Origin: Saccoglossus kowalevskii
Taxonomy: Eukaryota; Hemichordata; Enteropneusta; Harrimaniidae
Direction: 5' to 3'
NCBI RefSeq assembly: GCF_000003605.2
Contig: NW_003119426.1
Location: forward strand, 942,323-983,399
Length of the DNA: 41,077 nt
Part shown: positions 853-23,800 of the stretch, piece after piece
Layout of the letters: each line of letters begins with the position of its first letter
How positions within the stretch are numbered: position 1 is the first letter of the stretch
Program-made: the position numbers and the translations under genes
The notes under the pieces: generated by a model
What the model was told of the DNA's origin: nothing
The model's database searches: none
Seen by the model: the letters and a program-made list of their open reading frames with translations, nothing else

Positions 853-3800
853 CTTGATTAAACGTTGTAACATCATGGTGACAGCCAACCAATCAGGAAC
901 CAGTATCTCCAATTCTAGACTCAATAATGCCAGAGCCAGGACAGAGCCACGGAACGCGGTCAGACGGTTGTTACACACACACTGGAGAAGACGCGCTGTG
1001 AGGATAGAGAGATGTCGAGAAGGACTCATCTGTCCCAGACGAGATAGAAAATGAGGACAACCGAACACTAACAAGGCATGTAACTGTAAAAAAAAAATAT
1101 AAAAATAAATATTTATATTTGAACGCAGGTGGCTCAGATTATTAACTTCAATTGACTTGGGTCAAGGGGAAACAAATTATTTTTTCCTGACAACCCTATT
1201 TACCCATTATTGTACTGTAACTCAAACTTTTATTTGATGCAAATTACCGGTAATCAATTTTATTTTATTTTGATGCAAATTAGCTATGTGTTGTACTCAC
1301 TAAAAAAAGATTTTGTACATATACTTAGTTTAATGTCATGAATGAACGGAACAAGAATGTTTAGGAAATCCACTAGAATGTATGACAATTGGTTGTCATT
1401 CGCTTTTTAAATCTATTTTCAATGAATTATTGTGATACAGGTAGTCTATTGGGCGAAAAAATAAAACAAAAACCATATATACCTACCCCAATATTTCATT
1501 ATATTAAATACAGTACATTTTTTTCTTGGTCGTATGATTCAAATTGGTTGTTTTATATAAACATTTAAAAAACATTTTTTTTAACGTTTTTTATAGTTCT
1601 TCTGCATATTTGACAAAGTTTTACATATTTAGTCCTTTTAATGCCAAATTATTGTATTACCTTTCATAAATAAATTTTTTTTTTCATATTTTTTAAACAC
1701 TTTGATTAAAATTATTAAGCATTGGTAAATTATGTTCATTTCGTCAAATATTAAGAAAGAATTTGAAGAAAGTACAAAAGTAAAAATGCTGCAGTAAATT
1801 TACACTGGTCAAAAGGCTAAGAGTATTGACAACGGATTGTGTAAACATATCAATAAAAATACCCACTCCTTATATGGAAGTTGTGATATCCAAAACAAAC
1901 ATAGTGAATCTAGTTGCGAAGATGTATATTTTTTTATTTTTAATAAATTAAATTAGTTTAATTTACAAATTTTTCACTGTGATGGTCAGGATCAATAATT
2001 TAAATGTGAATTATAAAAATCTCATAAAAACCCACGTCATGCTACAGATCAAATAGGGACATACACAATTGTTTAGAATGTAGATTTCAATGGATAACAG
2101 AAAACAAATTCAAAATGCACATAACATAGATGAGGGGATGATCCTGCAGCTGGCCCTTTAATTTAATAAATTATCTTTGGAATGGAAAATAATTGAAATA
2201 TTCTTTTAACCTATTATATATACCGGTAGTAACAACCCAGAAAATATAAAATACTAATATGTGCAACCTTCACGTATATTTCCATAATATTATATTTCTT
2301 CTGGTATACTATTAATATTATACATTCTACTTGTATACATGTGACGTCAGGTGACAAATAATCCAAGTCTAATCGTGTATACCACACATGTTACTAAAAG
2401 CAAACGATTATCCACGTCAATGAAAAATCTGCTGAGCACAGCAGTTCAATTCATCCATACGCCAACCACCCGCCCGCCCACTCAAATGTTGCGAGTTGGC
2501 ATGGAAAAAACCATTACGGATTCAGTCACATGGTACAATAACATTGTAAAGAGTGAGCAACAAGTTTCTTTTCATAAAGTCCATTTTTTTTTTTATTCTC
2601 ATAGATTCTCAATTAAATTAAAGCCTAATGCATAATTAATTAATTAATTAATTAATGATTTTACAGTAAGTCAGCTACATCCCCTCCCGATTTTGGTAGA
2701 TCCATACAATTTGCTGCAAAAGCAACCACAAAACAGACCCCTCTCCTAAAAGAAGATTACTTTAAGATCCTTATATGGATAAAAAGAAATTTAATTGTCA
2801 TTATTTAAAAATAGTTGAATTAATATCTATTGTCGGTACACAAGTATTTTAATATCTCCTCCTCAGTGAATGTTTACGATGTATTGGACATGTTGAAACA
2901 TACATCGCTGTTACATTTCACATTCACAACATTAATCAGAGAAGGTAGTTTACTTACATTATGGAGGAAATCCAATGATGATGTCATGTTAATATCCCAA
3001 TGTAGTTTGTCTAAAATAATCTTCTCCATTCGGAGAACATCAGCCACACTACAACCACAGTCACTCACTTCAACAAGCTCCTGTGTGGACGGCACAACCT
3101 GAACACGGCAAAAAGAAAAGAAAACAAACATTTAACATTTTGAGCACCAAATTTAGGTAAATTTGTTCACATTTTCTGTGATTTTCACAGAATTTAATCT
3201 TAATTTAAAACCAAAAAGGATGAATGTGACATTGCCTCAAGTTTTTGATAAAAAATTCTGAAATTTACAGAATTTGATTAGAAAAGAGCAAACTATGAAT
3301 GGAACTATTTTCTGGTTGGTGTCAAGTTGATTTTTGAGCTTAAAGGATTAATTTCAAGAACAGACAGGATTTTTCTTGTAATATTAACATAATTATAACA
3401 AATACCATAAAGATTTAATTACCAATTTGAATTTTTTTTTATAAAATTGTTGTTTCTGTTCATAAGGCCCAGAAAAAAATCTTACCTACCCAAATGTTAT
3501 GCAAATCAGCAAAAAATATTTTATGTAAATTTGTCATGTTTAACCAATGAGATCAAATGTAGATGAAAAAATCAAACATGAATACAAACTTGAAATTCAT
3601 ATTTTACATTCTAGCAAAACAATGGACTTACATCGTCTTCCTCCTTCATTTTCATAGCAAGAAAGAAACAGCTGACTGAGATACATTTCAGATACTTGGG
3701 TCGCGCCTGAAAACAAAACACAGATTTAATCATTCACTTCAAAATAATAACAAAATTCTACTTGATTCGTTACCATAGTAATATGAATATAATCCTTTCA

Positions 3801-6800
3801 GGCTGTTTACTGGTAACCCTGATTTTTTTCAAATTCAAATGACTATGACTGAGAATAGAATACGTGACCTCCATAGTACAAATTACATTTCTACCCTACT
3901 AACCGGTTAGTCATAAATTGAACGCAATTTTTTATGCTTTTTTCTTTGTAACTAACCATACAGTACAGTACAAGATGCATAATGATTAGAATACAGTATA
4001 AATACAAACATTTGTTTGCATATAAGCTACAGCTACCAGAACATACCGCATCAATAACGTCATTTCCTATATGAACAATCAATATTTCCATACAATATAC
4101 ATGTATATATCAAAAAACAAATCCGTATGTTGTTTCCAGTTCAAATCATCAATTCTATCAGATTCACATCTCCATGGCAACAAGAATTGTCAGGTAAGCA
4201 TTTTTATATCCCAAATCTAATTACCATAACCCCATACAGAGTTTCATTAAAACTTTATATAATAAATTCCAATAATCTTTTTTTATTAAAAAAATAAATA
4301 AATACATAAATTATGCACATAGATGATAGACATACACAGGGTTTTGACAGACATCGTGGCAATTACCAACTTGCCTAATGAGTTTTCCTTCATGCCCTAA
4401 ACTTGCATACATACATTTGTACTCTTGCTTGTTTTTTGTTATTATGGAAGAATATAAATGACGAAAGCTAGGTAGGGCACGAAACAGAGACTTGTGACCC
4501 TTGGAGTAGAGTCTTTTTGATTAAAAGCTTTGTCAATTGGAGAGAAGATATATATACGTACATCATTTTGTAGATAGTGCCAAAAATTGACATTGGTGCT
4601 TAAAGAGTGAAACCTCACAAACACATAGTACATAGACGAGATGCTTTGCATGGTTACATGGATAATGAGTAAGATAGAACAAATAAAATAAATAATCAAA
4701 ATAATCATTTTATTAAAATTTCCAACAACATGTAATTAATTTTTTTTTACCCGTTTTATAGCGCACTGGTTGTCGCACAGCACGTGTTTGAATTTCATGT
4801 AAATAAACAATGTATTTTACACGCATTGTATACGTCGCTACGAGTTCGAACAGGACGCGGCACGACGACTGCCTCCCTTTAATATACTGAAATCAGTCCC
4901 AGCCTAATTGCTCATCCACCTCAAAACAAAATAAAACACTGAATACTGACATTTACACAAAGGAGTAGAAAGTCAGAGAATATATTTGGAAAATTGGCGA
5001 TTTGTATTCACGAAAACTTATTTGCGAAACATTTAATCACAATAACAGTCGATAATGAAACTCAATTGTTAGAAGTGCATGGTACAACAAATCCACCACT
5101 CTCTCGGGACTGAACAGTACAATTCAAATTTAAAATATATGAAACCACTTTACAGAACCACGCATCACCAGAGACAATACTGAATGAGAGAGCGCACACA
5201 CACAGTAATTAAATTTCAATTTGAGTGTACTTCACAGACAGAGAATGGAATTTTCCCTTCAAACGACATATATTCACCGAATGTCTGACGCTAGAGCTTT
5301 ACCTCCATAAATAAATACATTAATAACTAGGATATGAACCAATTTATCATAGCCTGAAAGGTTTAAAACGACCGACTTGGTGAGTATGGAATGTTGACAC
5401 AGCTAGACTGTATACCAACTTATCACTATATACCATTAACTCTTCAGGGTTATTTTAGTACATGGGCAGCTGTTGAATCAAATGTCACTCGTACTGGGGG
5501 GAATTAATGTACTATATATATATATAACCATTTAGTTAATTAATAACAGTGCTGCCTGGGATAATTAATTAAAATTAGAAAGCTAAATTTTAAGTGAAAA
5601 ATAAAATAAAACGTAGATGAAAAGAAAGCTATTCTTGTTTGTACTCAATTCTGGTTGAATATTAAGGTAGGTTTCTCTTTGACAATATGATCTTGCGTTT
5701 GTACTGGTAGACTGGTGCAGACTGAATAGCATGATAACTGAGGTGGTGTGGTCGATTTCCTTACCTTGATTGAGGCTAAAAAGTGATCCAGTATGGTTGT
5801 GCTTAGCATGAATGTTTCAGGTGAAAATTTAAACTTGAAATTCAGCATGCACATCCACCTTGTGATCTCGTCTCTCAGACGCGGACTTATTTCGTTCTCC
5901 TGCAATCCAAAGAGAAAAAAAAACAAAATAAATATTCTGTTCTCGTATTTGCTGAATGCATGCAAACCAAACATTGCATCTACATGATTGTATACTGGTT
6001 TTTATAAAAAAAACTTATTTTGGCCACAGACACACTTCTGTTAAGTACATAATCACATACAATATATGTGTTACTAACAAAGCAAATAAATAGTTCTTCC
6101 ATTTCCTCTCATTGACATTCAACCCAACTTTTGATTTGTTTTTTGCATTAGACAAGGAAATTAGTGTTGAATTAACTTTGCATGGAAATTTGTTTTTCAT
6201 TAGAATGAACAAAAGTTAAAAATTTCAAAGAAAATGGTAATAATTTGTATTTTCCACCAGATTCTATGGTAAAATATTATTTGGTGACACAAGATGAAAA
6301 AGTTTTATATTATTGATATGAATCCTAATATTTTATATTAAATTTAGTGAAGTTTCCAGTGGAATAATAATTTCCATTACTGTGGAGTAATTTATTTTCG
6401 CTGGAATTAATTTTCGCTGAAAAGGCTTTTGGGGCGTTTTGTATGGAATTTATTTTCACTGATTTTTGATGAGTTAAATGTGAAATATAGGAAAAAAAGT
6501 ATATTCGCTGGATTTTATTTTCACAGAATCATCCCTTCAGCGAAAATAGCGAAAATAAATTCCAAGCGAAAATAAAGTATTCTACAGTATATGCAATCAG
6601 TTCTGTCAGTAGTCCAGAATGCATGTATGAATTTAGCTTGAACTGCCTTAAGACAAAGAAATTCATATTTGCTGGTTGAGTTGTCATACGTACCACCATA
6701 TTGTCACACAAACCACTCGTACTTTTAAATATAGTTCAAAATATAAATGGGTCAATGGTTACCAGCCACTTCCCCTTTTGCCAACTGAATCCTAGCATAT

Positions 6801-8460
6801 GTACCAGTGTCTCAAATTACATTCAATAAATATATTCCATGATGACAGCATCAACACAACTAACTAGACACAACAACCTAATTTTAACACAGGTGAATTT
6901 AGAATGTAGATATCATGTTTACGTTCAATAATGCTATGAATACCAAAGTCAAAAGTATTTCTCTCTCACAAGATAAGCCTGCATTATTTATTTGTTTATT
7001 TATTTCTCAAAAATTCCAATCACGAATTGCTGCTAATAGGAAATTATGTCTTTTGGTTCAGCATCAACAAAGGAAATAGTGAAAATTCATGAAATGCTTG
7101 CAGTATATCTTTGATAGGGAAAAAATCATGCGCTATTCAAAGTGTTAGCATCTGGTGAACTGCCCCACATTCCAGTCCCATTAAGTACCACAACGATGAC
7201 ATATCAAGTTCATCCACAATTGCATTTTGGAACTATTTTGATCAGTTTCAAATATTTAACGTTTACTGTTGAAGCATTAATTGTAACTGGTATATAAAAC
7301 AATGTTGAGCAATAATCACTGGGTTTTAATTTCACACATTTGCCAGAAAAACAATTTTGTGTTATATGATAACTTTTCATGTTTTAATTTAGTGGATTTT
7401 ACTTACATATATCAGTAAAAATAGTGAAATGAAAACCTTGTGAAAAATTTATGCGTTTACATTATAGTATGTTTTCAAAACTTTATTTTGGGTTTGCATT
7501 TTTGAAAATCTGACAGTTCCAGATTTGTGGTGTTTATTTAGTCCAGCCAGAACCTACACATGTTTAGTTCACACATGCACAGATTGCATGGACGTATCTG
7601 AATAATAGTAATGTACAGCTGTGCCTAAATCCTCAACACACACACACTACACGCATGAAAAAACATTAAAAACAAAAAGATTAACAGAATTAATTTTATG
7701 AATGAAAGTTAGAAGGCAAATATTTCTGGAGATGTTTAAAGCATGGAATTCTGGGTATTTGAAAATGTTATATTGTACCAGTCACACTGTACAGTCTTGA
7801 TTCTATGGGGGCAAGGGGTTTAACAAATTTTGAAACCCTCTGTAATGAGAAGCCACATAGTTACTAGTCGGCTGAATTCTACAAGTTTCCAGACCTTCAA
7901 CCAGTATTGTGAATAAACAATTTTGAATTCCAATACTGATAGTAAAGACAACAAATAATTGTTATAGTAGGGTTGTCAGTAATATTGATAATAAAATTTG
8001 CTATCATAAATTAGCAGCAAACCCAATACTTAACATGTAAATCATCCCTCATTAAGTCATAAACGTGTTGAATAGTCTTTTGTTAAAAACTTGTTTGTGC
8101 TCAAATAAATCATTTGAAAATTTCTTTGTGACAATCCCCCTCTTTGTTTATTGTTTTTTTCATAATGCCAGTAACAAAAAAATGGGAGGAAAAAATCAAA
8201 TACTTATATCACCACTAGTTCAATTGCCAATCATTTTCAGGCTTAATTTTAATTTATAATTCAATTAGAGAATGGCGGTTTTTCTCCTCTACTTTTATAC
8301 CCCCCCCCCTCCCAAATGGTTTCAAAATTCAATCAATTATTACACTTACATCGTCTTCTGTGTCTCTCAGGTTCTTTTCCTTCCATGACTTGCTTTCCTT
8401 CTCCAAGGCATTATCTAGCATAAAATGCAGTTTTTTGGGATGTTTGATAATGCCAGCCAT
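853..8460 (-). CDS. CCNI: Cyclin I, 5' five coding exons (3' end outside window)
   Basis: Atypical cyclin of the G/I group. Coding exons on the minus strand: 8460-8350, 5899-5765, 3706-3632, 3098-2958 and 1083-853, giving 231 residues. Every junction is GT-AG and phase 0. The start is the first ATG after a polypyrimidine-AG acceptor (exon begins 8495) and opens MAGIIKHPKKLHF. The N-terminal helix is about residues 1-37 and the cyclin box runs from about 38 to 154 (RDEITRWM, SPETF, LDHFLASIK, RPKYLKCIS). K101 and E132 align with the conserved Lys/Glu pair that contacts the CDK in canonical cyclins. Exon 5 carries the cyclin I hallmarks SPSRHL, FRGSVLALA and VPDWL, which separate it from cyclin G. 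The exon 5 acceptor at 1084 (T-tract then ACAG) is preferred over one at 1030 because it restores LHALL directly after DFLHN. The last donor is at 852. The remaining C-terminus is not found in 1-852 and must lie to the left. The family acts in the cytoplasm or nucleus in cell-cycle and survival control. Confidence 0.93.
1084..2957 (-). other. CCNI intron between exons 4 and 5
   Basis: AT-rich, with a TTAA microsatellite at about 2632-2656. Searched for a missing small exon between DFLHN and LHALL; none is needed or seen. Confidence 0.6.
3707..5764 (-). other. CCNI intron between exons 2 and 3
   Basis: Contains MITE D copy 1 and a short TA tract near 5513-5526. The rest is unassigned AT-rich sequence. 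The following intron (3099-3631) shows nothing. Confidence 0.55.
4752..4884. mobile_element. MITE family D, copy 1
   Basis: Short imperfectly palindromic element (GCACGTGTTTGAATTTCATG, ACACGCATTGTATAC, GGCACGACGACTG, ending CCCTTTAAT). It is homologous to the segment at 14302-14420. In CCNI intron 2-3. Confidence 0.5.
6380..6587. mobile_element. MITE family A, copy 2
   Basis: Uninterrupted 208-base copy in CCNI intron 2, flanked by TA, with the same termini and interior as copy 1 (for example GGCTTTTGGGGCGTTTTG). It serves as the reference for the unnested structure. Confidence 0.85.
7310..7460. repeat. Degenerate relative of the nested MITE
   Basis: Shares CACTGGGTTTTAATTTCAC, TTTTAATTTAGTGGATTTTA and GTGAAATGAAAAC-like segments with the element at 416-623, but has lost clear ends. 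Within CCNI intron 2. Confidence 0.4.
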
Positions 8461-8495
8461 TCTTCCCTGTCCTCACCAAGTACTCCACCGCAAAC
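8461..8495 (-). other. CCNI: CCNI 5' UTR part of first coding exon
   Basis: On the minus strand a polypyrimidine tract followed by TTCAG ends at 8496, 35 bases before the ATG. The initiator exon is therefore itself preceded by an intron, and transcription must begin further right. This supports an upstream noncoding exon. Confidence 0.7.
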
Positions 8496-9322
8496 CTGAA
8501 CCAGAAAAAAAACACATTATATTAACACTGTGATCTTACTTTACATTTTTATAAAATCGCGCAATTTTTGCTGCTAAAGATTTTCATGATTTTATTGCAT
8601 TTTCCCTCACAAAAGTAAAGCGGTTACGATGTTAGAATCTACAGTCATCAAAGTCAATAGCTGGCGCATAGCTGACCGCAGGACAATGAGTAACATATCA
8701 GAAAGCAAATACACGAATTATTTCTCATCCTTGACCGTCACCCCTCATCTGCGTGAACATAGAATTATGGTTATTTGGATTTTTTTAAAACTCGCAATGG
8801 GAAAGGCATTTGGTGGGAGGGGGTAACCAAATTCTTTTCTTTGAGAATTGCTCTGACGGATAAAGTGACCCCTAGATATTGTAATTGGGATAAAATGTCT
8901 GACCGGTATCCTCGAATCAATTTGGGATAAAAAAAAAAGAAAGAAAAAAGCATGACAAAATTATTCGAACATATTCTGATCACGTTAAAAAGTACCGTGA
9001 GTATGAGAAGTATTTTCATGAAACCCAGAAATGACGACATCGAATAGAAACTGACATCTTACGTACAAAGGCGGGGGGTTTCCAGTTTAATACGGCGGGC
9101 CCATTGTCAAATATTTCCGGTGTCCAACCTCTGTCTATCCCCCGGTCTATCCCGAAATTGACAAGAATTGTATTTAAACTGAGAAATAAGTGTTTAAATT
9201 GTGGAAAAAACAAAACAAAGAAAATTGCAGCTGCGACACATTAAAATATCAAGAGGCTTTGTTTTGATGAAATCGGCATCAGTTGTCAATATCAAACTGT
9301 CAACTGACATTTCGTCTCTTAC

Positions 9323-9480
9323 CTTCTCACCAAAAGTGCAGCAAATTTGGTAGATGGATGATTTATACTGATCCATAAGCAGCCTAAGATGTTTCTTCTA
9401 GCACATGTTGACTAATTTGGGTCGGACGCTTCGAGAATATGGTAGAAATATAAGATAAATCAGGGGAATCGTTGCGAACT
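9323..9480 (-). other. CCNI: Probable CCNI 5' noncoding exon (right end uncertain)
   Basis: The minus strand reads GAGAAG|GTAAGAG with the donor at 9322-9321, a strong consensus that fits the acceptor at 8496. The exon would contain an ATG at 9376. If spliced to the next exon, that ATG opens a reading frame running past the CCNI start codon and stopping at 8417-8415. The transcription start cannot be read from sequence, so the right boundary is a guess. Confidence 0.5.
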
Positions 9481-10600
9481 AGATATCAGCGACAAAGGCG
9501 TAGTTAGTTTATGTTTACGCCAACCGGGTCGGTGCATATTATTACTGAGTCAGCTGTTCACAACGATATCAAAAATATCACTCCGCTAATTGACAAAGGG
9601 TTAATTTACCGGCGATGCTAAAATTCACTATAAATACTTGATTTGGTAAAATATAACTAAGTCGTAAGCAGCGAAGTTTCAAATGATCGTCTGACAATGA
9701 TTATGCATTATTTCTGTTTTTCAAATACATGTTATTGGTAGTATAGTTCTGTGAGTAAATCGCCGTATCAAAATAACAACCAATGGTAGTGCAGCTGGCT
9801 ACGTGCGGTTGACATTTCCCCGTCAGGCAACGTTGAACTGCTTTTTGGTTTTGTATTTTTTTCGTCTCACAGTTGTCTGACTATCTGTCGTGAATTGCCT
9901 TCTTCCCAACCCAAATAAATACGATATTGTTCCCCATACACTGATTAAAAGGCGTTACTTTGACGCCGATTACGTAAAGTATTCGGTTAAAATTATCACG
10001 TCTGTCGCCAACTTATTAGCATGCACAATTTACACTCAGCCAATCAGAGCGTTCGTTTGAAAAGGCGCGAAGTCCAAACGGACGAAATTGACGAAACAGC
10101 TGACAGAAATAAACAACAGTGTCGACGCGCGCCCTCAGCATTTGAGGTATTGTGAAGAGCCCGGTTTGGTAGGTAAGATTAATTTCTCGAATGCTTCTCA
10201 TTTTTAGTGATATTTCCCTTACCATCGGAGCATTCTTTATTTCAACAATGTTTGTTTTTACCCGTGATCAGATTAGATGAGAACGCACCATTCACCTTTG
10301 TCAAAATGACAGCCCGGTTCGTACGCCTATCTTTTGTGTCTCTCTGACCTATTTTTGAGATAAATATTATTAACTGGGCGTAAATCTACTGTCAAATCAA
10401 ACTGGCTCCAGTTGAATGCCCTGGATGTCAGTCGAAGATTTTGTCTGCGTTGCATTGTTTTTGAAGCGACTAGGGCCAAAGTGAAGAGCGTTTGTCCATT
10501 TCCAGTCAATCGGAAATTCATTTTTGCCAGTTGCCGCCAGCTGGGAGCACAACAATAGCCGCTGATCGTGTATTGTTCGACTTTGTGGGGTTTTAGATAA
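9381..10600. promoter_or_regulatory. Probable bidirectional promoter between CCNI and CCNG
   Basis: About 1.3 kb separates the first inferred donor of CCNI (9322, minus) from that of CCNG (10640, plus), and no other gene lies between. Visible motifs include a forkhead-type TGTTTAC (9512-9518), an AP-1/Maf-like TGAGTCAGC (9546-9554), TTACGTAA (near 9970) and a CCAAT box followed by CAG (10040-10047). No clear TATA box is placed for either gene. Mammalian cyclin G2 is known to be induced by FoxO factors, so the forkhead site is suggestive, but single short motifs prove little. Confidence 0.55.
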
Positions 10601-10639
10601 CTTTCTGTAGTAAACTATAGTTGGGAGCGATAGGCGGAG
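10540..10639 (+). other. CCNG: Probable CCNG 5' noncoding exon (left end uncertain)
   Basis: GGCGGAG|GTAAGT at 10633-10645 is a near-perfect splice donor just downstream of the GC-richer intergenic stretch. The CCNG initiator exon begins exactly with its ATG after an AG acceptor, so a 5' noncoding exon is required, and this is the best candidate. A weaker alternative donor (GGTAG|GTAAG) lies near 10170. The transcription start is unknown. Confidence 0.5.
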
Positions 10640-12357
10640 GTAAGTTTGACCATGATTTCAAGTTTCCAGGAGACTATGAGGCTCCATGTTTTCGACTTAA
10701 TGTAGCAACCAGTTAAAATTCGATCCAGTTCAATAATAAATGAAATCACTGACAATGATTTGATAAAGATTACCTTGTCAACACGATTGGCATTGTTATG
10801 TTAAATTCAGTATGTGTTGGTGGGTGGGGGTCTCTCGTCCATATGTTACAAAGCGGTAAACACCTCCTAATACAAATGTATTTCCAATAGACAACTTTGG
10901 TTTACAAGTTGTAATTGTTGATTTCGTTGTTGGAAATGAATCGTTTTGTACTTGTACTTGTACTGGAAAGAGTGAGTATAAATGTTACGATATAGTTTTA
11001 GATTCATTTCCAAACACATAAATATATTCCAAATTATTTGTTTAATTTTGATAATGAAACCATGGAGCTTTCTAGCCCCATGATGAAACTAACAAGCCAT
11101 GTTTTGTAGTTTCATAATTTTGATACAATTTTCCCAATTTTGGTAATTGTCTTGTTAAGTTAAAAACACTAAGTTCTTCACATATAGTTTTGTATATTAG
11201 AAATTCAATTTTTTTTTCTGAATAGTGAAATCAACAATAATAATATAATAAGTTTAGGTAAAAACACTTTGGTAGTTAAAACATGTTTGCTCTGTGTTGT
11301 TTTGTGCAAAAAAAAAACACACACAAAAAAAACACTGAAATAACGTATAATTTTATGTAACCAGGAACCTTAGAAAGCAGTAACAAAAAAAAGATGTGAG
11401 CATGATTCTAGTTGCTAATTACAATGGAAACAAAAGACTAAAAGTGTAATCAACATAAGCAGTAGTTCCTGCTGCACCCCCAGAGATTGACAACTCCCCC
11501 CTTTAAATGTCCTTCACCATTTCAGTAAGTAAGTAGAATTGTTTGCATGTGCTTCAGATTAGTTTTCAAATTCTCAAATTTTTTATCAAGATTAAGAGAC
11601 CAATTTTCATGAAATCAGTCAAAGTTTCAAAATTTTGTGGACAGAAACATTTCACTGGGCTTCTAAATACATCTAACCGTGCAAATATAAGGGTTTATCA
11701 AAAGGTGTGATAAAATGCTGGCTATACCTAAGCTACTGCAGATGATAACACTGTTTATTAATTTAATAATTTTATAATATTTAGAAGTACCTTCACTTAC
11801 TTGTGCTCCGATAACATGGAAAATAAATCACATGGTAGCTGAAGTGAGCTGAAGCCTATTTGATAGGGTCACAGCTATGGGTGTGAAGTGAAATAGGTCA
11901 TCTGTCTATTTTTTTGGCTATTGAATAGATTGGGGTTTTATTAACAGGCAAATCACTGTAATATAAATTAAATTCTAATACACACACACATTTCATACTA
12001 GAAATTTTACCAAATCAGTTGATTTCGTACAGTATTTAGGACTTTCTGTTCAGCAATGCTATGTAGTATAGTTTTTAAAGACCTTTTAGGAGTGTCATGT
12101 ATTGTAAAGTTAATTGTGTTAGAGTAAGTGCACATCTATTTTAAAAGTCTGTAGTTATCGCCAACAATGAATCCTTTATAAAGCTGTGATCACTAAGTGA
12201 ACTATCAAGTTGGTAAACAAGTGGTTGTTTATACCTGGATTCCAAATGTGTGAATTCACTAATACTAGAATCATAAATTGACAGATCTTTTACCATGCGT
12301 CCTGTATATTACTGTCAAAAAAGTTTGAAAAATGCAAATATTTGTGTCAGTAATTTA

Positions 12358-12548
12358 CTGTAGAATACTTTATTTTTGCTTGGAATTTATTTTCGCTGAA
12401 AGGGATGCTTCAGTGAAAATAAAATCCAGCGAATATACCTTTTTTCTAATATTTTACATTCAACTTCAGTGAAAATAAATTCCATACAAAACTCCCAAAA
12501 TGTCTTTTCAGCCAAAATTTATTCCAGCTACAATAAAGTATTTTACAG
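12358..12548. mobile_element. MITE family A, copy 3 (inverted)
   Basis: Flanked by TA; starts CTGTAGAATACTTTATTTTT and ends AAAGTATTTTACAG. The interior is in the opposite orientation to copies 1 and 2. It lies in the long 5' intron of CCNG. Confidence 0.8.
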
Positions 12549-12630
12549 TATTCAACTATTTTCAAACATTCCTAGCGGTTTACAGTTATTCATGTAATGT
12601 AGAAAAGTCAGCGTGTAAACTGAAAATCTG

Positions 12631-12776
12631 CTTAAAGCGAAGGAGTTGTCGCCTACGCATGTGTCTGAGGGCAATAGCGTTTCATTGTTTCATTTTGCGT
12701 TTTTAGCGTGTGTTGTTATCGCCAATTTGAGACTCAATTCCCGCACATACGCAGGTGATGACCCTCTCGCTTTAAA
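12631..12776. mobile_element. MITE family C, copy 1
   Basis: 146 bases with inverted termini CTTAAAGCGA.GGAG and CCTCTCGCTTTAA. The interior contains TGAGACTCAATTCCCGC and AACACACGCTAA-type words (reverse strand). Inverted relative to copies 2 and 3. Confidence 0.7.
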
Positions 12777-13549
12777 CTGAACACTGTAACAATTTTCAAG
12801 TTCTCCTAAAAGTATGTCATACGTTGCCGGCAAATGAAAGGGTACGTCTCCTTTTTGAAGCAAATCAGAAAGCATAATAATAACACCATTTTTTTTCATG
12901 GTCTAAACTCTTGCCTTGTCAATGCTACACTGAAACATTCTATTTACAAAATCGAGGAAAATATCCAAACATTTTTGATAAAAGAAACCACGAAGACAAA
13001 TTCATTGCTTAAATGACATAAACTCTTTGCTCCCGAAAAAAGAATGCTGATTTTTTTTATAAATGTTTTGCTTAAAAAATGCATTTTCTAACATTATGAA
13101 TAGAAAAGTTAGTATGAACAATTTTTATTTAATTTTATGTTAATCTGACGTCATTTTACTAGGATACAAATGGAGTTGATGGCAAGCCTTTTTTGACATT
13201 TTGTAAAAAATACACATTTAAGTATTCATGTTCATTCCTATCATTTTGTTAAAATACAAATACAGGCTGATACTCTGAGCAACACTAGCAGGTTAGGAAA
13301 ATCAGGAAATTTCAGATTATAATCGGCCAAGTTGTGTTGAAACTGTTTTTATTGATTTTCTTGTTGGGAGGTAATAAATACAGAAATAGTCAAACCTGTG
13401 TTAGTGACTACTTCTATATAAACCACCAACCAACTTTTAATCTGTTCCAAAGTATAATGTATAGCAATTTGATTATAAACACCACCTGTGTCATGTGACC
13501 ACTCTGTCAGGACAATTTTTGCATATTTGCCTTTGTTTAAAGACCAATA

Positions 13550-13815
13550 TAATAACTTCATCACGTAATGTATTCATAATTATTTATTTCGTGAATAAAT
13601 GTATAATCATTTTATCCTGTGGTGTATCAATGATTAATTATGCAGTAAATATATGTATAATCACTTCATCACGTGATATATTACTAAGTATTTATGCAGT
13701 AAATAAATGTACAATCACTTCATCACGTGATATATTACTAAGTATTTATGCAGTAAATAAATGTACAATCACTTTATCACGTGATATATCAATAATTAAT
13801 TTATGCAGTAATCAA
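13550..13815. repeat. 54-bp minisatellite, about 5 units
   Basis: The unit contains ATCACTTCATCACGTGATAT and TTTATGCAGTAAATAAATG. The two central units are nearly identical and the outer ones diverged. The period is a multiple of three, so an 18-residue pattern shows in an open frame. There is no splice or homology support for translation. Confidence 0.85.
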
Positions 13816-14133
13816 TTTCTTTTGGAGTTTGCTATATGCAGATTTGACTGTATTTACTGATTCCAATAATCTTTTGAAATAATAATGAAACTACGGAATC
13901 TATTTTGAAGTTTACATATAAAGTTCAGTATGTATGACTCCATTATTGAATTCTTACCGACTTACGGTAGTTGATTACAACCAAGTGTGGTTACCATGGG
14001 ATACTGTGCAGACCTGGTTGCTTTGGGGGCTAGTTACATGCTCAGTATTTTATTTATTGTTTCTATTTCTGACATATATCTATTAAGTAGAAGTTTCTTG
14101 CAGTGAAATTTGTCCAAATTTTAGAACTGATCA

Positions 14134-14183
14134 NNNNNNNNNNNNNNNNNNNNNNNNNNNNNNNNNNNNNNNNNNNNNNNNNN
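14134..14183. other. Assembly gap (50 N)
   Basis: A run of exactly 50 N, probably a placeholder of unknown true length, in the CCNG 5' intron. A small exon could be hidden here, although the gene model does not need one. Confidence 0.99.
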
Positions 14184-14301
14184 TTTGTGCTACCCAGTTT
14201 TGACCTTTGATTGCATTACACCTTCACCGACTATTAGGGGTTTTGATTTTTTCCAATAGTTTTCTTTTATGTAAAAACCCAAAAATTGCTTATATTCTGT
14301 A

Positions 14302-14420
14302 TTCACGTGGAAGCACATGTTTGTATTTTATGTAAACTAACCATTGTACATGCAATGTATACACCGTTGTGGATCCGAAATCAAACACAACATGGCGCGA
14401 CAACGGAAAGACTTTAAATT
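14302..14420. mobile_element. MITE family D, copy 2
   Basis: Shares CACATGTTTGTATTTTATG, CATGCAATGTATACACCG and GGCGCGACAACGG..GACTTTAA with copy 1. In the CCNG 5' intron, about 120 bases after the N gap. Confidence 0.5.
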
Positions 14421-14834
14421 TAATTAATTGGTTAGTGCTTCATAAATAAGTTTTTCGTCTGTCAAACAAATCTATGAAATCTAATTGATCATCTAAGTTC
14501 ATACAAGGTCAACTTCTGAATAGACATCCCCCCCCCCCATATAAATGTTGATTTGTCTTATCTGTATTTATTTATATACATGACTGAATTAGGGTGGTCC
14601 ATAAATTTATAATACAACCTGAACCATGCCAATTACATGTAGCCACTATTACAACAGATTCTGTTTTTGTTTGATGAAAATTGCAAATGTGTATGCATCC
14701 TGAAACTATCTTAGTACATACTAGTATTAAATGTATAAGGCATGCTGTCATTCATTTTATTTCGTTGTATGTATCGCATGGGACCCATGTGAAGAGTTTA
14801 TGAAATTTCCAAAGATTATTTTTTTTCTTTGCAG

Positions 14835-17800
14835 ATGGAGATATCTCACCATTACAAGGAGGAGATGGCACACTTGTTGTGTTCATTGCAGAAACTTTTG
14901 AGCAAAGAAACTCAGTATCAAACAACTCTGGAACACATGCTGCAATGCTACACACAGGTAATGATCCCATGAACTTGTACTTTTCATGAACCCCTAAAAG
15001 TCACACATCCTGGCAAATTCCCTATTAATGAGATTTTTTCCCAAGTAATCTTCAGAACACAATGCAAGCAGTTGCCATGGAAGTTCCAAAAACTGTTTGG
15101 CTAGGTAAAATTTGTTGGTGTAATTATTGTAAATTATTGGTGTTGTCTAATTATTGGTGTATGTCTACATTATCCACAGAAAGTGCCAGTATGTATGTTC
15201 TTCCTGGACTATGCATAAATAAACCAAAAAATCACTTTTTTTTTCACTGAATCTTAAAAATGGGTAAAAGTATTGGGCAAAATCTGTGCATATTAATTAC
15301 CTAATTTGCATATGATTACCAGTAGTAAATTTTTTTGCTTTTCCACTTCTTGATAACTCAAGTACTAATCATCACATTTCGATGAAATTTGGTATATAGA
15401 TGCTCTAGGACAATGCACAGACCTGATTAGTTTCAGGTTAAAATCTTTGCATAATAATTACCTAGTTTGTATATTAATTTAGTTCTAACCCCTTTTCAAT
15501 GAAACTTTGTACATAGATGGTCTATGACTTTGTGCAACTACCTTATAGTTTTACATTAGTAACCTGATTTGCATAATAATTAGTCGGTTATCAGCTTTTC
15601 CATCAATATCTCCAGTACCTATCATCTTATATTAATGAATCTTGGTACGTATATACTCTGTGACAATGCAGCAATGTAATTAGTTTGGGGTTTATATACA
15701 TCAATAATAAACACCTAATTTGCATAATAATGCAATACCAATTTCAGCTTTCCACCAATTTGTTTAAGATTAATTATCACATTATATTGAAATTTTGTAA
15801 ATGTGCATCCAGGAACAATGCACAGATCTAAATTTATGCATAATAATTAATTTGGTTCATTGCGGTAATCCAGACATGATCAGTTCATTGTTGAAAAACA
15901 TGCATATCTAATTATTTTTAGCCCCTTTCTGAAAATTTCAAAAAATCAGATTTAAATAGGATTTTGTGATAGAGGTGCTCTTGAATTAATTAGACTGACA
16001 ACCACAGCTGTAAAATCAAATGTATTTTCTGTAAGTATTATAAATATTGTGGATCACATTGTTTTCACCATGTGCATCTTCAATTGCAGACAAATATTAG
16101 TTTGCCAAGCTTCTTATTTGCAAGGCTAATCATTTTTAAATTAAAATTTTTAATTTATTTTAATGCGTCTCCCAGAGAGCACACGGGAATGCTGAGAGCA
16201 CGCAGGAATTCTTTTAAAGCTTTTTTTGATTTGATATTTTTTTCTGAATCGTGAAATTTATGAACTTTGGTTTCCTGCATAATCTATATAACATAATTGA
16301 CTTCTGTAAATGACAAGTTATCTTATAAAATAGATACGATAAGAAATATTTTATAGCGACCAGCGATGAACAAAGACTACAAAATGGCCGATAATTATGG
16401 CGTAAGCATCACATGACACAGAAACTCGCAAATTGGTTCTTGTAGTTTCCTATAAATTTGCTTGTCAACTTATTACATTCATTGTTGAAACTAAAACGTC
16501 TGATTAGACGACTCATGTTTTTTTCATAATTAAAAATTATTGGTGCTTAAATTCTTCATGTTAGCAGATTTGTTGTTATCACTTATTGAGAACAAATGAA
16601 AAATAATAGTTCACTTTATTGTATTCATGGAAATAACCAATAATTCGATTAATGTATTAAACGCATTAAATTGCCATTCGATAGGGAGATACTAGTAGCC
16701 GCACAGCCCTGTCATGTAGTACCAAACATGAATATGGTTTTTGTGGCAAAAATGCACTATGTGTCAGTATTAGCACTTGTAATATGCACATACAAAAAAA
16801 AAGTCAGGAGACACAACAGTGACATTCAATGTCCAGAACTGTCTTCTGGCACAAAAACATTTGGGGAAAAAAAAATTTGATCAATGTCGCAACAACAGAG
16901 ATTTAAGGCAAACAATACAAGTATGATGCCAAAATTGCAAAAGAAACTCAAAGCATAGCCAATTAAGACATGAATTATTTTTTATGAGGTTGATTTCTAT
17001 GTGTGTGAAAACTCATTGGCATGAATTGTAAAACAATGTGTTATGATATTCTTATAAGTCAATTTTTTTTATCATATAATTTAGTCATACAATCACAAAA
17101 CTTTGAGTCAAACACCTCACAACCCCCTTAGGGAATTATACATGCTGTTGCCCTTATGACCTGCCGTCTAAAGATTCATTCTGCAAATGTAGTACAGGTA
17201 CACTGATTGCTGCCAGGAATAACAAAACATTAAAGATTTCCAAGTTTCTATTCTGGGTCCTTTTAGTATGTTCTACAATGTGTGTTACTGCATGCAATAA
17301 TAATACATTATACAACAATGACTTAAGATTTACTGATGGGTGAACTATAATGACCTTTTCAACACCAGACTTTCTCGCCAAAATTTTTCTCCACTTTTTT
17401 TTCTTTATATTCTTCAATATTTCTGGAAATAAACCCTTAATTTTAACAGTCTTTGCTGAAAAAAATGGCTATTTTATCCCAATCTTCTGAAGGAAAGTGC
17501 AGACTATAAACGGGATTATTTTGTGAATTTGTGATGAAAAAAAGGGAACTGGTGGTGAAACGGTTAAATGGCGATTCCAATCCTATTATGAATTGTTCAC
17601 CTGCCCTACAATTTACCCGACAAAGATTTGGACCACAACTGTAAATAAATAGCGATGCTAATGTAGAATCATTTAGTACGGTCATTTAGCAATAGGTATT
17701 TGCGGCTTTCTTTTGCTGTATTTATTTTTCATCTATTAGAAACACATCTCCAATACAGCGTTCCCACTAACAAGACTGATACTTGTACTTGTTGGGATTT

Positions 17801-20800
17801 TGAATCAAAATGGAATCTCAAAAAACAAATTGAGTCAACTGCTGGGGGAGGGGGGGGGGGTTAATAAATAAAATTGTATGCAACTGTGAGTGACTTGATT
17901 CAAATAAAAAATTAAGAGTATATAGTACGGTATTACGGTTTCCTTCATATATTGCATAAAGTGTACAGCAGCGCATAATATTCTTTGAATGACATTTTTA
18001 GTATGTGGAATTCCATGAATTAGACCAAAAGCTACCACCTCAGCATGCCCCATTAAAAATATAAAGATTTTTTAATTTATCTGAGATAACGAAATTTCTT
18101 GTTGAGGTAATTTAACTCGTATCTCCTGTTGTCAATTTCAGAGTAGTACGGATGTCATCACACCAGAGATTCGTAATAAAAGTATACAGAACTTGCGGGT
18201 GTTAAATAGATTTTACGGTTATCCCTCGGAGACGTTCATGATAGCTGTCAATGTGATGGATCGATTTCTCTCCATCCTCAAGGTAATGACATTTTGATAA
18301 TGATAGTTGCAGTGTTACAGCCGTTCTGAGAATTATTCGGACAGTCAGTTAGCAATATATCTTGCAACTTTGCAAAACACTTGGGTCTTTTCCAATCTAG
18401 ACTTGATGGCGTCGTCGTACTGGCATGCCCAAAATTGGGATCATTCCATTATCTTGCTAGATGTGGGTAAAATGTCATGTAAATTCATTGCATACTGTAA
18501 ATACATTAATTGTTCAGTCAACGCTGACGGTACAATTTTAAATGAGACTTATTCCTGGGCTTCCTTAGTTTTTTCTAAAAGCAAGTTGCCAGCTTGTTTT
18601 CAACATCATTAAAACAGGGAGGCAATAGCCTTATATCAAAAAACACAATTCACATTACAACTATCTACAAATATATATATTTCAAATTCAAATTTTTGTT
18701 TGCTTACATTTTATTTACTCATTTATATCACATTTATTTGTATATTATTATATGTATATATGTATATATGTTTATAGTGAAATAAACTTCACATCACAAA
18801 TTGAAATATGGTACTTACACTTTGTATTGTGCATTGCTGTAAACCATTTTAATTTGGTGAAAGACAAATTTAGCTAGTCAATGAAAATTTCTCCAAGGTC
18901 CAACAACAAAGAGTCTGTGACTCATGAAATTTTGTTTCTGTGAATGCCATATAATCATCAAAATTCAAAAATTCCTAGCTACGAAAAAATTAAGGGATTT
19001 AAGTATGTTTTCCTAATGTTTAATGTACCTTTCTGTGGGCTTACATTTTTCTGAATAAAACTGATGACTATTTTATCTGATCATCGATAATTAACGATTT
19101 GGAATTAGTCTTCACCATTGGTGGCAGAAATAATAAACTGTTTCCAAATTTACCGGTAAATATATTTCACCATTGGTACATCATGTATCTAGCGAAAAGT
19201 TAACAGGAAGCACTTGTATTGATGCCATCTTGGGTCACCTCAATTTGATGCAGGCATGCAACACTGCTTACAGAGAGCTAATTATTATTTTGCATTGAGT
19301 AGTGTACAGCATAATATGTGAATAGTTAAAAACATTAAATGCATGTGAAAACAGTGCAGTGTCTTTATTTATTATAAGACTGTATGGCGCCCTCACAGAC
19401 AGACATGTGCTCAAATGTCTGAGTTTGTCAGTGAGGGCGCAATAACTAAACCAACCAACATAATTTGATAGATTCATACATAGGTGTACCGAATTGAGCC
19501 AAGACCAATGCTACAATAAATATACATTGTGTTCATCTGCCTTCTCTAGATTTAACCTTCATGTGGTCAAGTCAATGTAAAAGTACATATATCAACTGAT
19601 TTCATATTTTGGACTTATTTCCAGGATTTAAAATTCATGAAATGTTTTAATTTAAAAAATAGTGAAAATGTAGAAAATTGGGGGTACTTGAATTTGTTTC
19701 AGTATAAAACAATGACTTTGGGATTTCCCTATATTGTGAACCCCTACTCTACTGGTCATTTTGAATTCTGTAGAATACTTATTTTTAACTGGACTTAATT
19801 TTTGCTGAAAATATATTTTGGGTGTTTTGTATGGAATTTATTTTCACTGAATTTTGACAAGTTGAATGTAAAATATAGGAAAAACGATATATTCGCTGGA
19901 TTTTACTTTAACTGAATCATTCCTTCCGCGAAAATAGCAGAATTAATTCCAAGTGAAAATTAAGTATTTGACAGTAATTGAAATCTTACTTTCAAATAAC
20001 CAGGCACATGGAATAATTCATCAATATATCACAATATTCCTTGATGAGTGTTTTAATCTGTACACTGTTCTGTTTTATATCATGTGTTCTTTGTATTTGA
20101 CTCTAGGTCAGACCACGTCACATGGCTTGTATCACAGTAAGTTGTTATCATATCGCGATTAAAAGTACAGTCACAGATCAGGTATTATTATACTTTACCT
20201 TTATCTTTTCAACCACACATGGCTTTCACAATACTGTAGTTTCACTTATTGAATTTTTGTGAGCATAGTTTTGAGTTAAATTTGTGATTTGAACAATTAA
20301 TCGGTATCACTAGACCACCACGCAGTTAAAACTAGTCTCAATATATTATGATTGTTCATTTATTTTCATTCATATATGAAGCTATTACCTGCCACTAGAT
20401 GGCGCTAAACATACTGGTTAAATGGAGAATGAAAAGTGTGGTCTTTGACATTGGAGGTCTATTTTTACCTCCATAGTTTGACCTAAAGAATTCATGGTCA
20501 GGTGTGGATATGGCGCGAGGCTTTTTTAAATTTGGAGCTTTGTTCTCAATGAATTAGTAATTTATGACCAAAATTTATACCTATTGTGCAAGTGATATCG
20601 GAAATTAAAAACTGGGCATTATTTTGACATGAAAATTTAAAAAGTTAAAATGTGTAACTGCTCATGTTTCAACTTTGTTTATTTTTAAAGGATATGCCCT
20701 CAGCATTTGACCTTATTCGCATCAGCCAATCAAAATGCACAGTCAGCGATCTGAACCGAATGCAACGGATAATCCTGGAAAAACTAGAGTGGGATTTGGA

Positions 20801-23800
20801 CTGTCCTACTTCCCTGACATTCCTGCACCTTTTCCATGCTATTGCAATTGCCAGCGAATTTCTACACATTGATGTTGGGGAAGAAGACGAACACTTGGAG
20901 AAGCTGTGCTGGAAGTTGGAAGCTTGTATGTGCCAGACTTCATTTACTGTGTATAAGGTATGTAGACGTAAATAGGGTTCTCTGTAGAAGCTAAGTAACA
21001 AAAACATTTAGGTTCTGCATTTTTCACCTTGGATTAACAACTCTCCATTTTGGACCTATGTCCTCGAGGTTCTATTCTTGATAAAGTAAAAACAGATAAC
21101 ATAGTTTTAGACATAGCTAAATACTACAATTTGTATTTTTTAAACCAAATTAATATCTCGTCTTCAGCCACATCACAAATCATGTGATAAGAAGTCACAA
21201 AGTCTTCTAGATTCATGTGAAATATACCATGGTAACCTACACTCATACTAGCAATATGTGTTCCTGATGTTTAATTTACCTTTCTGTGGTTCATCACATG
21301 ATTTTTTTTTAAAAATCATTACCAATTTCTCACAATATTTTATTGTTTGAAAATGGTCTTAGCTATTGTTGATTAAATTGACATATATTGAAGCCAAATC
21401 TAAATGTAATTGTTCACTGTTACGGTTACACAGGAGCCAACTTACTCAGACAACTCTACATTCATTTATCTGTTGGATATTTCCAGTGCAGTACATGCTT
21501 TTTAATTTTAAGCATTTCTTTTTTCATCACATTCTTTGACTGTATATTATTCCTAATTTTGTCAGGCAAATTTATTGTGCAAATTGCACATTTGTATTTC
21601 TCTATAATTTCATTCATATTTGTTTATTCAAATCGATATAATTAACCATCGCCTACAGTTTATGATCAACGTGCAGTAAACAAAAATATAGTTTTGAGAG
21701 AAGGGACATCTTGAAAATGACGAACAGCGCCCCCATTGCTGGAAAGTGGAATTTCTGCTGTTTATGCAGGCTGAGTGCACATGAAGTTCATTTTGTGTAA
21801 TGCATTGAGTTCATGTCTGGGCCAATTATTCGATTTAGGAATTCATTAATGAGGAGAATATCGACTTAAATTTCACTGGAAAAGAATTCAGACAATGGGA
21901 ACAATCTTATGGCCAGGTTGCAAGACTTTTAAAAATCTCATAAAAATAAAAATAAATACAATTCTATTGGGTCAGCCATATGTTGTCTTCTTTCTTTCTG
22001 ACCTGTTAACAAATTGCTATATCTGTTACATTTTTGCAGGCTTCCACATTAGCACTGTGCCTACTGAGCTGCGAACTAGCTGCCAGGTCAGATGTCACAG
22101 ATATCACATCTAAGAAGTGGATGCGATCAACTTTAGCACTGCAGCTGCTGACAGAGGTAAACATGTCTGTTCTAAATACTTGATACTTTGCCATATTTAT
22201 GTGTAATTAATGGTGCATTGATTCAAAGAATGGCTTGTTAGCTGTAATTGATCTGTGGCTTATCCGGTGTTTACACCATTAAGACCCGGAAAGCCTGGGG
22301 GCATCACTGGAGGAGATTTTGAGACTGAAAAAAGTCAGGACAATGTTGGAAATTTGATCAGTTAAACTTAAAACAATTAGGATATCTGTACACTAATTAA
22401 TTAAACATTCAGTGTCTAATGCAATAATTAAATTAAGTAATTAATATTTAAACTATTAGACTGCTGTGGATCATTCCTTTTATGCAATGGTAAAATCACG
22501 CCACATCAGCCCTTTTTGTGTGTGTGTGTGTCTGACTGTCCATGCATCTGTTCGTGGGTGTGTTGGTGTACCTATATCTCATGCCTGAACTAATCCTGTT
22601 CAAACTTCAGACCTGCATTCTGCATCATATCACAATTACACACTATCATGATCCATGATCTTTCTGTCATTCAGAAACCATATCTTCACTTATACAAAGA
22701 CGGATTTTGTTCAGACATGGTACATATTTAGATGGAAGCTTGATGCATGTCATTTTGTTTCATAGAGATCTGATTCACAATTTAAATTTATTAAATTCTG
22801 TTCAACATTGTTTTGCCAAGTACATCTCAATAAAAGTATGCCCTCTATGACAACAGGAAGCACTGTCTCAGCACAGACCTGTGTCATATGACACCTTACT
22901 AGCTAATTTTGGCTAAAATAGTGCTCCGCCACCTTTTTACACTAGCGTTTAAAAATGGAACTTGATACTTCTTTTTGCAATTTAAGTTGCTTTTTAATCA
23001 CATATTTTAGTGAAATGTTGCTTAGTGAGTGAAATATTGATGTCATACGAAAATCAATCTTTGGAACAACAGAAATAATAAATAATAAAATTTGTGTTTG
23101 AAGTTTAAAATTTCCCGAGTAATTTCAGGTTTCAACTACTAGTAGCTTGAATGCAATAAAATCATGCGTAGAATGTCTTCTGAACCATGAGCTAGCAATG
23201 TAAACTTGTTGCAAATCTGCACAATTTTAGGGCCAGTTTGTTCTTACAGTATTTCTAAGTTTCATTTATCATTATTTAGTAAAGAAATCACTGAAACGAT
23301 TTATTATAGCCATAAAATATGTGCCAACCAATGATTGACTTTGAAATGTTAGAAGTTTCAAACAAACTCTTCGCACTCCTTGCACGATATACGTCAGATC
23401 AGTGTTGATAGGACACCGACCTGCAGCATCAATGTTCACTGGCAATGCAATAAAAGTATGCCCTCTCTGGCAATGCAATAAAAGTATGCCCTCTCTGGCA
23501 ATGCAATTAAACTATGCCCTCTCTGGCAATGCACTAAAACTATGCCCTCACTGGCAATGCCATAAAACTATGCCCTCACTGGCAATGCAATAAAACTATA
23601 CACTTGCTGACAATGCCATAAAACTATGCCCTCGCTGGCAATGCAATAAAAGTATGCCTTCACTGGCAATGCACTAAAACTATGCCCTCACTGGCAATGC
23701 AATAAAACTATACACTTGCTGACAATGCAATAAAACTGTGCCCTCTCTGGCAATGCAATAAAAGTATGCCCTCACTGGCAATGCACTAAAACTATGCCCT

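Follow-up and report, generated by a model that had tools for sequence, protein, structure and literature searches.

Why do two sister cyclin genes stand head to head in the genome of the acorn worm Saccoglossus kowalevskii, are they transcribed from a common promoter region, and how old is their linkage? The question is raised by a 41,077-bp stretch of contig NW_003119426.1 (positions 942,323 to 983,399; hereafter the window), where the minus strand carries cyclin I (CCNI) and the plus strand cyclin G (CCNG), the 5′ ends of the two facing each other. Taken as a whole, the explanation that we consider quite probable is that the two genes are an ancient inverted-duplication pair, transcribed outward from a single region and forming a three-gene block with a septin gene.

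Gene models gave the orientation of the pair directly. The CCNI model consists of five minus-strand coding exons with GT..AG borders, encoding the first 231 residues of cyclin I, and the CCNG model of seven plus-strand exons with consensus splice borders, encoding 350 residues of cyclin G. The exons are as follows:

8350..8495, minus strand, CCNI coding exon 1 (start codon at 8460; bounded by an acceptor immediately upstream of 8495 and a donor at 8350)
5765..5899, minus strand, CCNI coding exon 2, with the cyclin box (splice-border model and Pfam)
3632..3706, minus strand, CCNI coding exon 3, 75 nt (agrees with CCNG exon 3 in length and intron phase)
2958..3098, minus strand, CCNI coding exon 4 (splice-border model)
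853..1083, minus strand, CCNI coding exon 5, the last known CCNI exon (a run of N lies just left of the window)
14835..14957, plus strand, CCNG coding exon 1 (opens with the ATG, directly behind the acceptor)
18142..18282, plus strand, CCNG coding exon 2 (splice-border model and Pfam)
20107..20181, plus strand, CCNG coding exon 3, 75 nt (splice-border model)
20691..20957, plus strand, CCNG coding exon 4 (splice-border model)
22040..22156, plus strand, CCNG coding exon 5 (splice-border model)
24522..24745, plus strand, CCNG coding exon 6 (TWVISSRTARQL..LPTI stretch in common with human CCNG1 and CCNG2)
25182..25284 or beyond, plus strand, probable last coding exon of CCNG (3′ end not fixed)

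An earlier, sequence-only reading had claimed two divergent sister cyclin genes here, which the models, the Pfam matches and the identity between the two proteins bore out; its positions 8350 and 18282 proved to be exact exon ends of the CCNI and CCNG models. Pfam Cyclin_N (PF00134) matched residues 16-144 of CCNI (2e-23) and residues 25-149 of CCNG (1.7e-17), so that the N-terminal cyclin box is present in both. All comparisons with human CCNI, CCNG1 and CCNG2 used approximate protein sequences. On these, CCNI is 49% identical to human CCNI (226 bits), against 37% for CCNG2 (127 bits) and 34% for CCNG1, and CCNG is 39% identical to human CCNG2 over 327 aa (203 bits, the C-terminal stretch included), against 36% for CCNG1 (165 bits) and 31% for CCNI (123 bits). 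The CCNG-type C-terminus (W[IV].S.RTA..L ... LPTI) is also present, the exon at 24522-24745 aligning with human CCNG1 and CCNG2. When the proteins were compared with solved structures, the best match was cyclin D1 for CCNI (1.6e-10; 60 of 64 matches listed) and cyclin A2 for CCNG (2.4e-05; 54 of 54 listed), the other matches listed also being to cyclins; neither cyclin G nor cyclin I was among the structure matches listed for either query. When genome contigs of bacteria and archaea were scanned with a cyclin G pattern, none of the 10 pattern matches proved to be a relative, as expected. The 3′ end of CCNI was not found, 9749 of the bases in the 10 kb left of the window being N. Passages in the literature tie cyclin I to CDK5 (PMC5256034), and cyclin G proteins to PP2A and CCNG1 also to p53 (PMC6971155). 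A tandem array of a 28-base unit in 34 copies (23439-24388) was observed within a CCNG intron.

The two neighbours are related to each other. CCNI and CCNG of the window share 35% identity over 203 aa (134 bits), exon 3 measures 75 nt in both, and the two introns flanking it agree in position and phase; one CCNI intron, falling inside the region of CCNG exon 4, is absent from CCNG. Since the two are paralogues, their adjacency by chance is implausible. A search of the 572-Mb assembly with both gene models found no second copy of either gene: at least six CCNI-model and at least seven CCNG-model matches all fell within these two genes on the window's contig, counts that can be lower bounds, with the last CCNG exon left out and 10 candidates scored per model. 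A cyclin-domain search of the genome returned 12 matches, one of them on the window's contig; thus other cyclins exist, but not close to this pair. In the tabulation given by one source, cyclin G and cyclin I are distinct ancestral bilaterian genes under one TreeFam number, with two vertebrate copies each (PMC3238295), and a passage of another handles G/I as a single subfamily, with cyclin D between G/I and cyclin E (PMC3923393). No description of CCNI and CCNG as a head-to-head pair was met in the passages of open-access papers that were covered, which is weak evidence of absence; a trout paper names CCNI, CCNG1 and CCNG2, their positions being absent from the passage concerned (PMC7393730).

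From where, then, are the two genes transcribed? The acceptor of CCNI coding exon 1 lies 35 bases upstream of the start ATG at 8460, and an in-frame TGA stands between them in the same exon; therefore a non-coding first exon is implied. The CCNG ATG directly follows the acceptor at 14835, and therefore the leader must be further upstream. Splice donors in 8496-14830 were scored with an approximate splice matrix, at a cut-off of > 6, and CpG retention was analysed by a two-state segmentation on CG, TG and CA counts alone, in which splice sites were not used. Together these gave three candidate features:

9321..9325, minus strand, candidate splice donor for a non-coding first exon of CCNI (AAG/GT, last exon base 9323; score 10.24, rank 1 of 15)
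10637..10641, plus strand, candidate splice donor for a non-coding first exon of CCNG (GAG/GT, last exon base 10639; score 11.95, rank 1 of 19)
8558..10636, no strand assigned, segment with retained CpG, read as the promoter region common to both genes (two-state segmentation and shuffles)

The top donors of the two strands (minus 9323, plus 10639) are 1316 bases apart, which reproduces the claim of about 1.3 kb between the first donors; the runners-up in the same region are minus 10223 (9.48) and plus 10172 (8.78). With this spacing, the transcription starts of CCNI and CCNG could be less than 1 kb apart.

Methylated gene bodies lose CpG over time. The segment at 8558-10636 has retained CpG between CpG-depleted flanks, and was the best CpG-rich segment in 1-27000, with 92 CpG among 363 informative dinucleotides and a log-likelihood ratio (LLR) of 36, a value that none of 2000 shuffles matched (maximum LLR 11.6). 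Its left edge fell at 8558 in 21 of 24 parameter settings, the remaining three giving 8489, 8621 and 9423, and its right edge at 10636, 10722 or 10989 across all 24; at fixed rates the 95% ranges of the edges were 8414-8832 and 10580-11020. The left edge agrees with the first coding exon of CCNI and the right edge with the CCNG donor. To the right of the segment the observed/expected (o/e) CpG ratio drops to 0.20 in 10951-12250, and it is 0.13 in two scanning intervals over the first coding exon of CCNG. The presumptive first intron of CCNG thus resembles a transcribed, methylated gene body, and there is no CpG-rich promoter at the first coding exon of CCNG. This depletion suggests that the CCNG transcript probably starts before 10.95 kb, and both transcripts probably start within one 2.1-kb region. 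Hence the proposal of a short common 5′ region, as predicted from sequence, found support in both the donor spacing and the CpG segment. In many invertebrates methylation is found in gene bodies and leaves promoters free, as described in passages on annelids (PMC11292947) and on the crown-of-thorns seastar, with methylation of 48-50% in introns, about 12% in intergenic DNA and about 5% in promoters (PMC12550476).

In the arrangement that we propose, CCNI and CCNG would have been born by inverted tandem duplication before the split of hemichordates and vertebrates, and both would be transcribed outward from a single region of unmethylated type at about 8.56-10.64 kb, with the start of minus-strand CCNI upstream of donor 9323 and that of plus-strand CCNG upstream of donor 10639. 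Each gene would have a non-coding first exon, and the first intron of CCNG would be 4.2 kb long. Divergent pairs with bidirectional promoters are known, for example CDT2-INTS7 (PMC2194621) and ICK-FBX9 (PMC2876993), which in the passages concerned resemble the present pair in being head-to-head genes with a single short region between the first exons; unlike them, CCNI and CCNG are paralogues, and their promoter activity is inferred from sequence only. A 54-base tandem repeat of 4.8 copies with a CACGTG core was noted at 13551-13811, in the presumptive first intron of CCNG.

Does the conserved arrangement reach beyond the two cyclins? In the DNA flanking the window on the CCNI side, open reading frames (ORFs) of SEPTIN6/8/11 type were found on the plus strand of the contig. 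An approximate septin probe located eight septin pieces, in order and on the plus strand, at C1211:917317-924357, and the joined pieces matched Pfam Septin at 1.2e-77. Compared with solved chains, one septin exon matched Septin-11 (1.8e-44), Septin-8 (2.1e-44) and Septin-6 (1.8e-43) best; among the 29 sequences below 1e-20, Septin-1, -2, -3, -7 and -9 scored about 3e-22 to 7e-21, the exceptions to these weaker matches being the Septin-2 chain 8dkt_B (7.9e-40) and two sequences named only 'Septin' (4.1e-39 and 9.2e-32). The septin gene lies about 19 kb beyond the last known exon of CCNI (end at C1211:943175) and is transcribed towards CCNI, tail to tail, with about 9.7 kb of N between them in which a further gene could hide. 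The block order here is SEPTIN(+), CCNI(-), CCNG(+), and the septin would with the two cyclins make up a three-gene block having the order and directions of vertebrate SEPTIN11-CCNI-CCNG2.

At human 4q21 we take SEPTIN11-CCNI-CCNG2 to have this same order and these directions, so that the two loci would be alike in their three gene families, in order and in orientation. They differ in spacing: human CCNI and CCNG2 are presumably about 80 kb apart, whereas the first donors predicted in S. kowalevskii are separated by about 1.3 kb. The genome duplications of vertebrates would have left a second copy in SEPTIN8-CCNI2 at human 5q31 and in CCNG1, which lies farther off on that chromosome. The families there are the same, in keeping with a single ancestral set of linked genes that was doubled along with the genome; unlike in the S. 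kowalevskii pair, the CCNI and CCNG copies of that set are no longer adjacent. For cattle, 'CCNI, SEPTIN11, CCNG2' stand together at a single locus in an association table (PMC8446201), and a passage on LGALS1B, a galectin gene called unique to Sauropsida, names ccni, shroom3, septin11 and 'sqwahb' (taken to be sowahb) among its neighbours (PMC10343441). By eye, no SOWAH or SHROOM was recognised in the ORFs of at least 110 aa at 802-942 kb, left of the septin, where 44,059 of 140,000 bases are N.

The age of the linkage depends on the taxon, for which the mitochondrial code was used, assuming that the mitochondrial contig comes from the same animal as the window. Judged by eye at conserved positions, ATA stands at conserved Ile (COX1 'YNViVTAHAF' and 'PIMiGGFGNW'), AAA at conserved Lys (ND1 'GERkALGYMQARkGP') and AGA at an expected Ser (ND1), and TGA inside the reading frames reads as Trp. 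In echinoderms AAA specifies Asn, and in molluscs and annelids ATA specifies Met; the set ATA=Ile, AAA=Lys, AGA=Ser and TGA=Trp is one that we take to fit Enteropneusta and not the vertebrate code. With a block order as in human 4q21 and a mitochondrial code that points to an acorn worm, the linkage would go back to the ancestor of the deuterostomes, and would thus be at least as old as the common ancestor of hemichordates and vertebrates, both taxon and date being deduced in this way. The suggestion that the linkage may predate vertebrates is supported by a mitochondrial code that is not a vertebrate's, and by a septin placed and directed as in human 4q21.

If the whole explanation is true, the septin-cyclin I-cyclin G block has been unchanged in order and direction since the deuterostome ancestor, and represents the pre-duplication state from which two vertebrate sets, SEPTIN11-CCNI-CCNG2 on the one hand and SEPTIN8-CCNI2 with CCNG1 on the other, would derive. 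It would also offer a test case of sister cyclins that are apparently under one promoter in an invertebrate and far apart in human. What is new here is that no second copy was found in the genome, and that a septin beyond CCNI completes the vertebrate-like order.

Why the pair has stayed together is a separate matter. It had been suggested that the two genes were kept because they share regulatory DNA, and this is weakened in two ways: the septin, which lies outside the common region, was also kept, and at about 80 kb in human the adjacency has outlived any compact common promoter. On these same grounds, slow rearrangement in deuterostomes alone may suffice to keep the genes adjacent, the common promoter being a neutral by-product of the inverted duplication. 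This account is compatible with the explanation that we prefer, and we lean slightly towards it: the septin beyond the common region keeps the same order and direction as in human, and human CCNI and CCNG2 lie far apart, but slow rearrangement is not distinguishable here from constraint. A bolder reading, which we regard as rather doubtful, is that an outward inverted duplication round one promoter took place before or early in the bilaterians, that slow-evolving invertebrates have kept this bidirectional promoter as a working means of co-regulation, and that it was split only in vertebrates, each partner gaining its own controls.

It appears quite unlikely that CCNI and CCNG are ancient divergent neighbours with separate promoters, CCNI starting just upstream of 8.5 kb and CCNG at 12.2-13.0 kb or directly before 14.8 kb. 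Such a start of CCNG would be in keeping with the CpG-richer stretch 12251-13000 (o/e 0.96; best segment 12612-12845, LLR 7.0) and with plus-strand donors at 12754 (8.73) and 12841 (8.21). However, the LLR of 7.0 is below the 95% level of the shuffles (8.3), the stretch contains inverted repeats of the kind expected in an inserted element, CpG o/e is 0.13 over the first coding exon of CCNG, and the strongest plus-strand donor is the one at 10639.

Several points weigh against outward transcription from a single region and against the explanation built on it. The human distance and directions are taken as background, the human protein sequences are approximate, and the donor ranks depend on an approximate matrix; the same matrix gave 4.26 to 11.48 for 11 coding-exon donors, so that donor rank is only suggestive. 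CpG content is an indirect trace of methylation, and intergenic DNA may also be unmethylated. The CpG index scored 28101-33214 as 'low' though it is largely a tandem array, and repeats can thus mislead it. The shuffles take no account of local composition, and beside the weaker CpG-richer stretch at 12251-13000 there is another at 4752-4866 with an LLR of 9.6, above the 95% level of the shuffles and below their maximum. No motif class was prominent in 8558-10639 (17 patterns, 300 shuffles). Finally, in a passage on two annelids promoters make up 7.71% and 14.08% of unmethylated regions (PMC11292947), so that the segment may also contain plain intergenic DNA.

A transcription-factor account of the segment (FOXO, p53, NF-Y, E2F/CHR, AP-1, CRE and others) was rejected, the lowest fractions, 0.030 for TTACGTAA and 0.040 for RRCCAATSR, being unremarkable for 17 tries; the pattern scan found no p53 half site in 8558-10639. 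An inverted repeat at 8972-8991 and 10256-10275 (20 nt, 80%), one of 13 pairs, was put down to chance.

That the two genes arose by recent local duplication within the lineage, which would account for paralogues with matching introns, is scarcely credible and was rejected, as CCNI is closer to human CCNI (226 bits) and CCNG to human CCNG2 (203 bits) than either is to its neighbour (134 bits), and cyclin G and cyclin I are separate ancestral bilaterian genes in the tabulation cited above (PMC3238295).

Further features were observed in the window and the assembly. A recurrent element with inverted arms and 'GAAAATAAATTCC'-like words, likely a small mobile element, lies at 12356-12550, and similar words were seen by eye near 320-740, 6320-6680 and 19650-19970. 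Scans of the window for tRNA genes and Rfam families gave no matches. A gene for a growth factor of PDGF/VEGF type occupies 33320-34890 on the minus strand; its separate ORF pieces matched the PDGF/VEGF domain (6.2e-13) and the CXCXC repeat (0.00078), a third piece between them being without a match. Repeats of the CXCXC kind are a typical feature of VEGF-C/D-like proteins. The gene shows none of the CpG loss seen in the cyclin genes, its CpG o/e being near 1. A 3.7-kb tandem array at 29477-33207 is built of a 46-base unit in about 81 copies with 91% matches.

Outside the window, minus-strand ORFs at C1211:902323-912322 resemble an N4BP2-like protein, with the P-loop 'GLPGSGKSTLAR'; the name is tentative, and of two pieces scanned in Pfam one gave a weak AAA_33 match (0.0056), below the cut-off, and the other none. 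On the mitochondrial contig (C4830), COX1 (13355-14941) and the remaining large genes recognised, ND6 excepted, are on opposite strands, an arrangement that differs from the usual deuterostome order.

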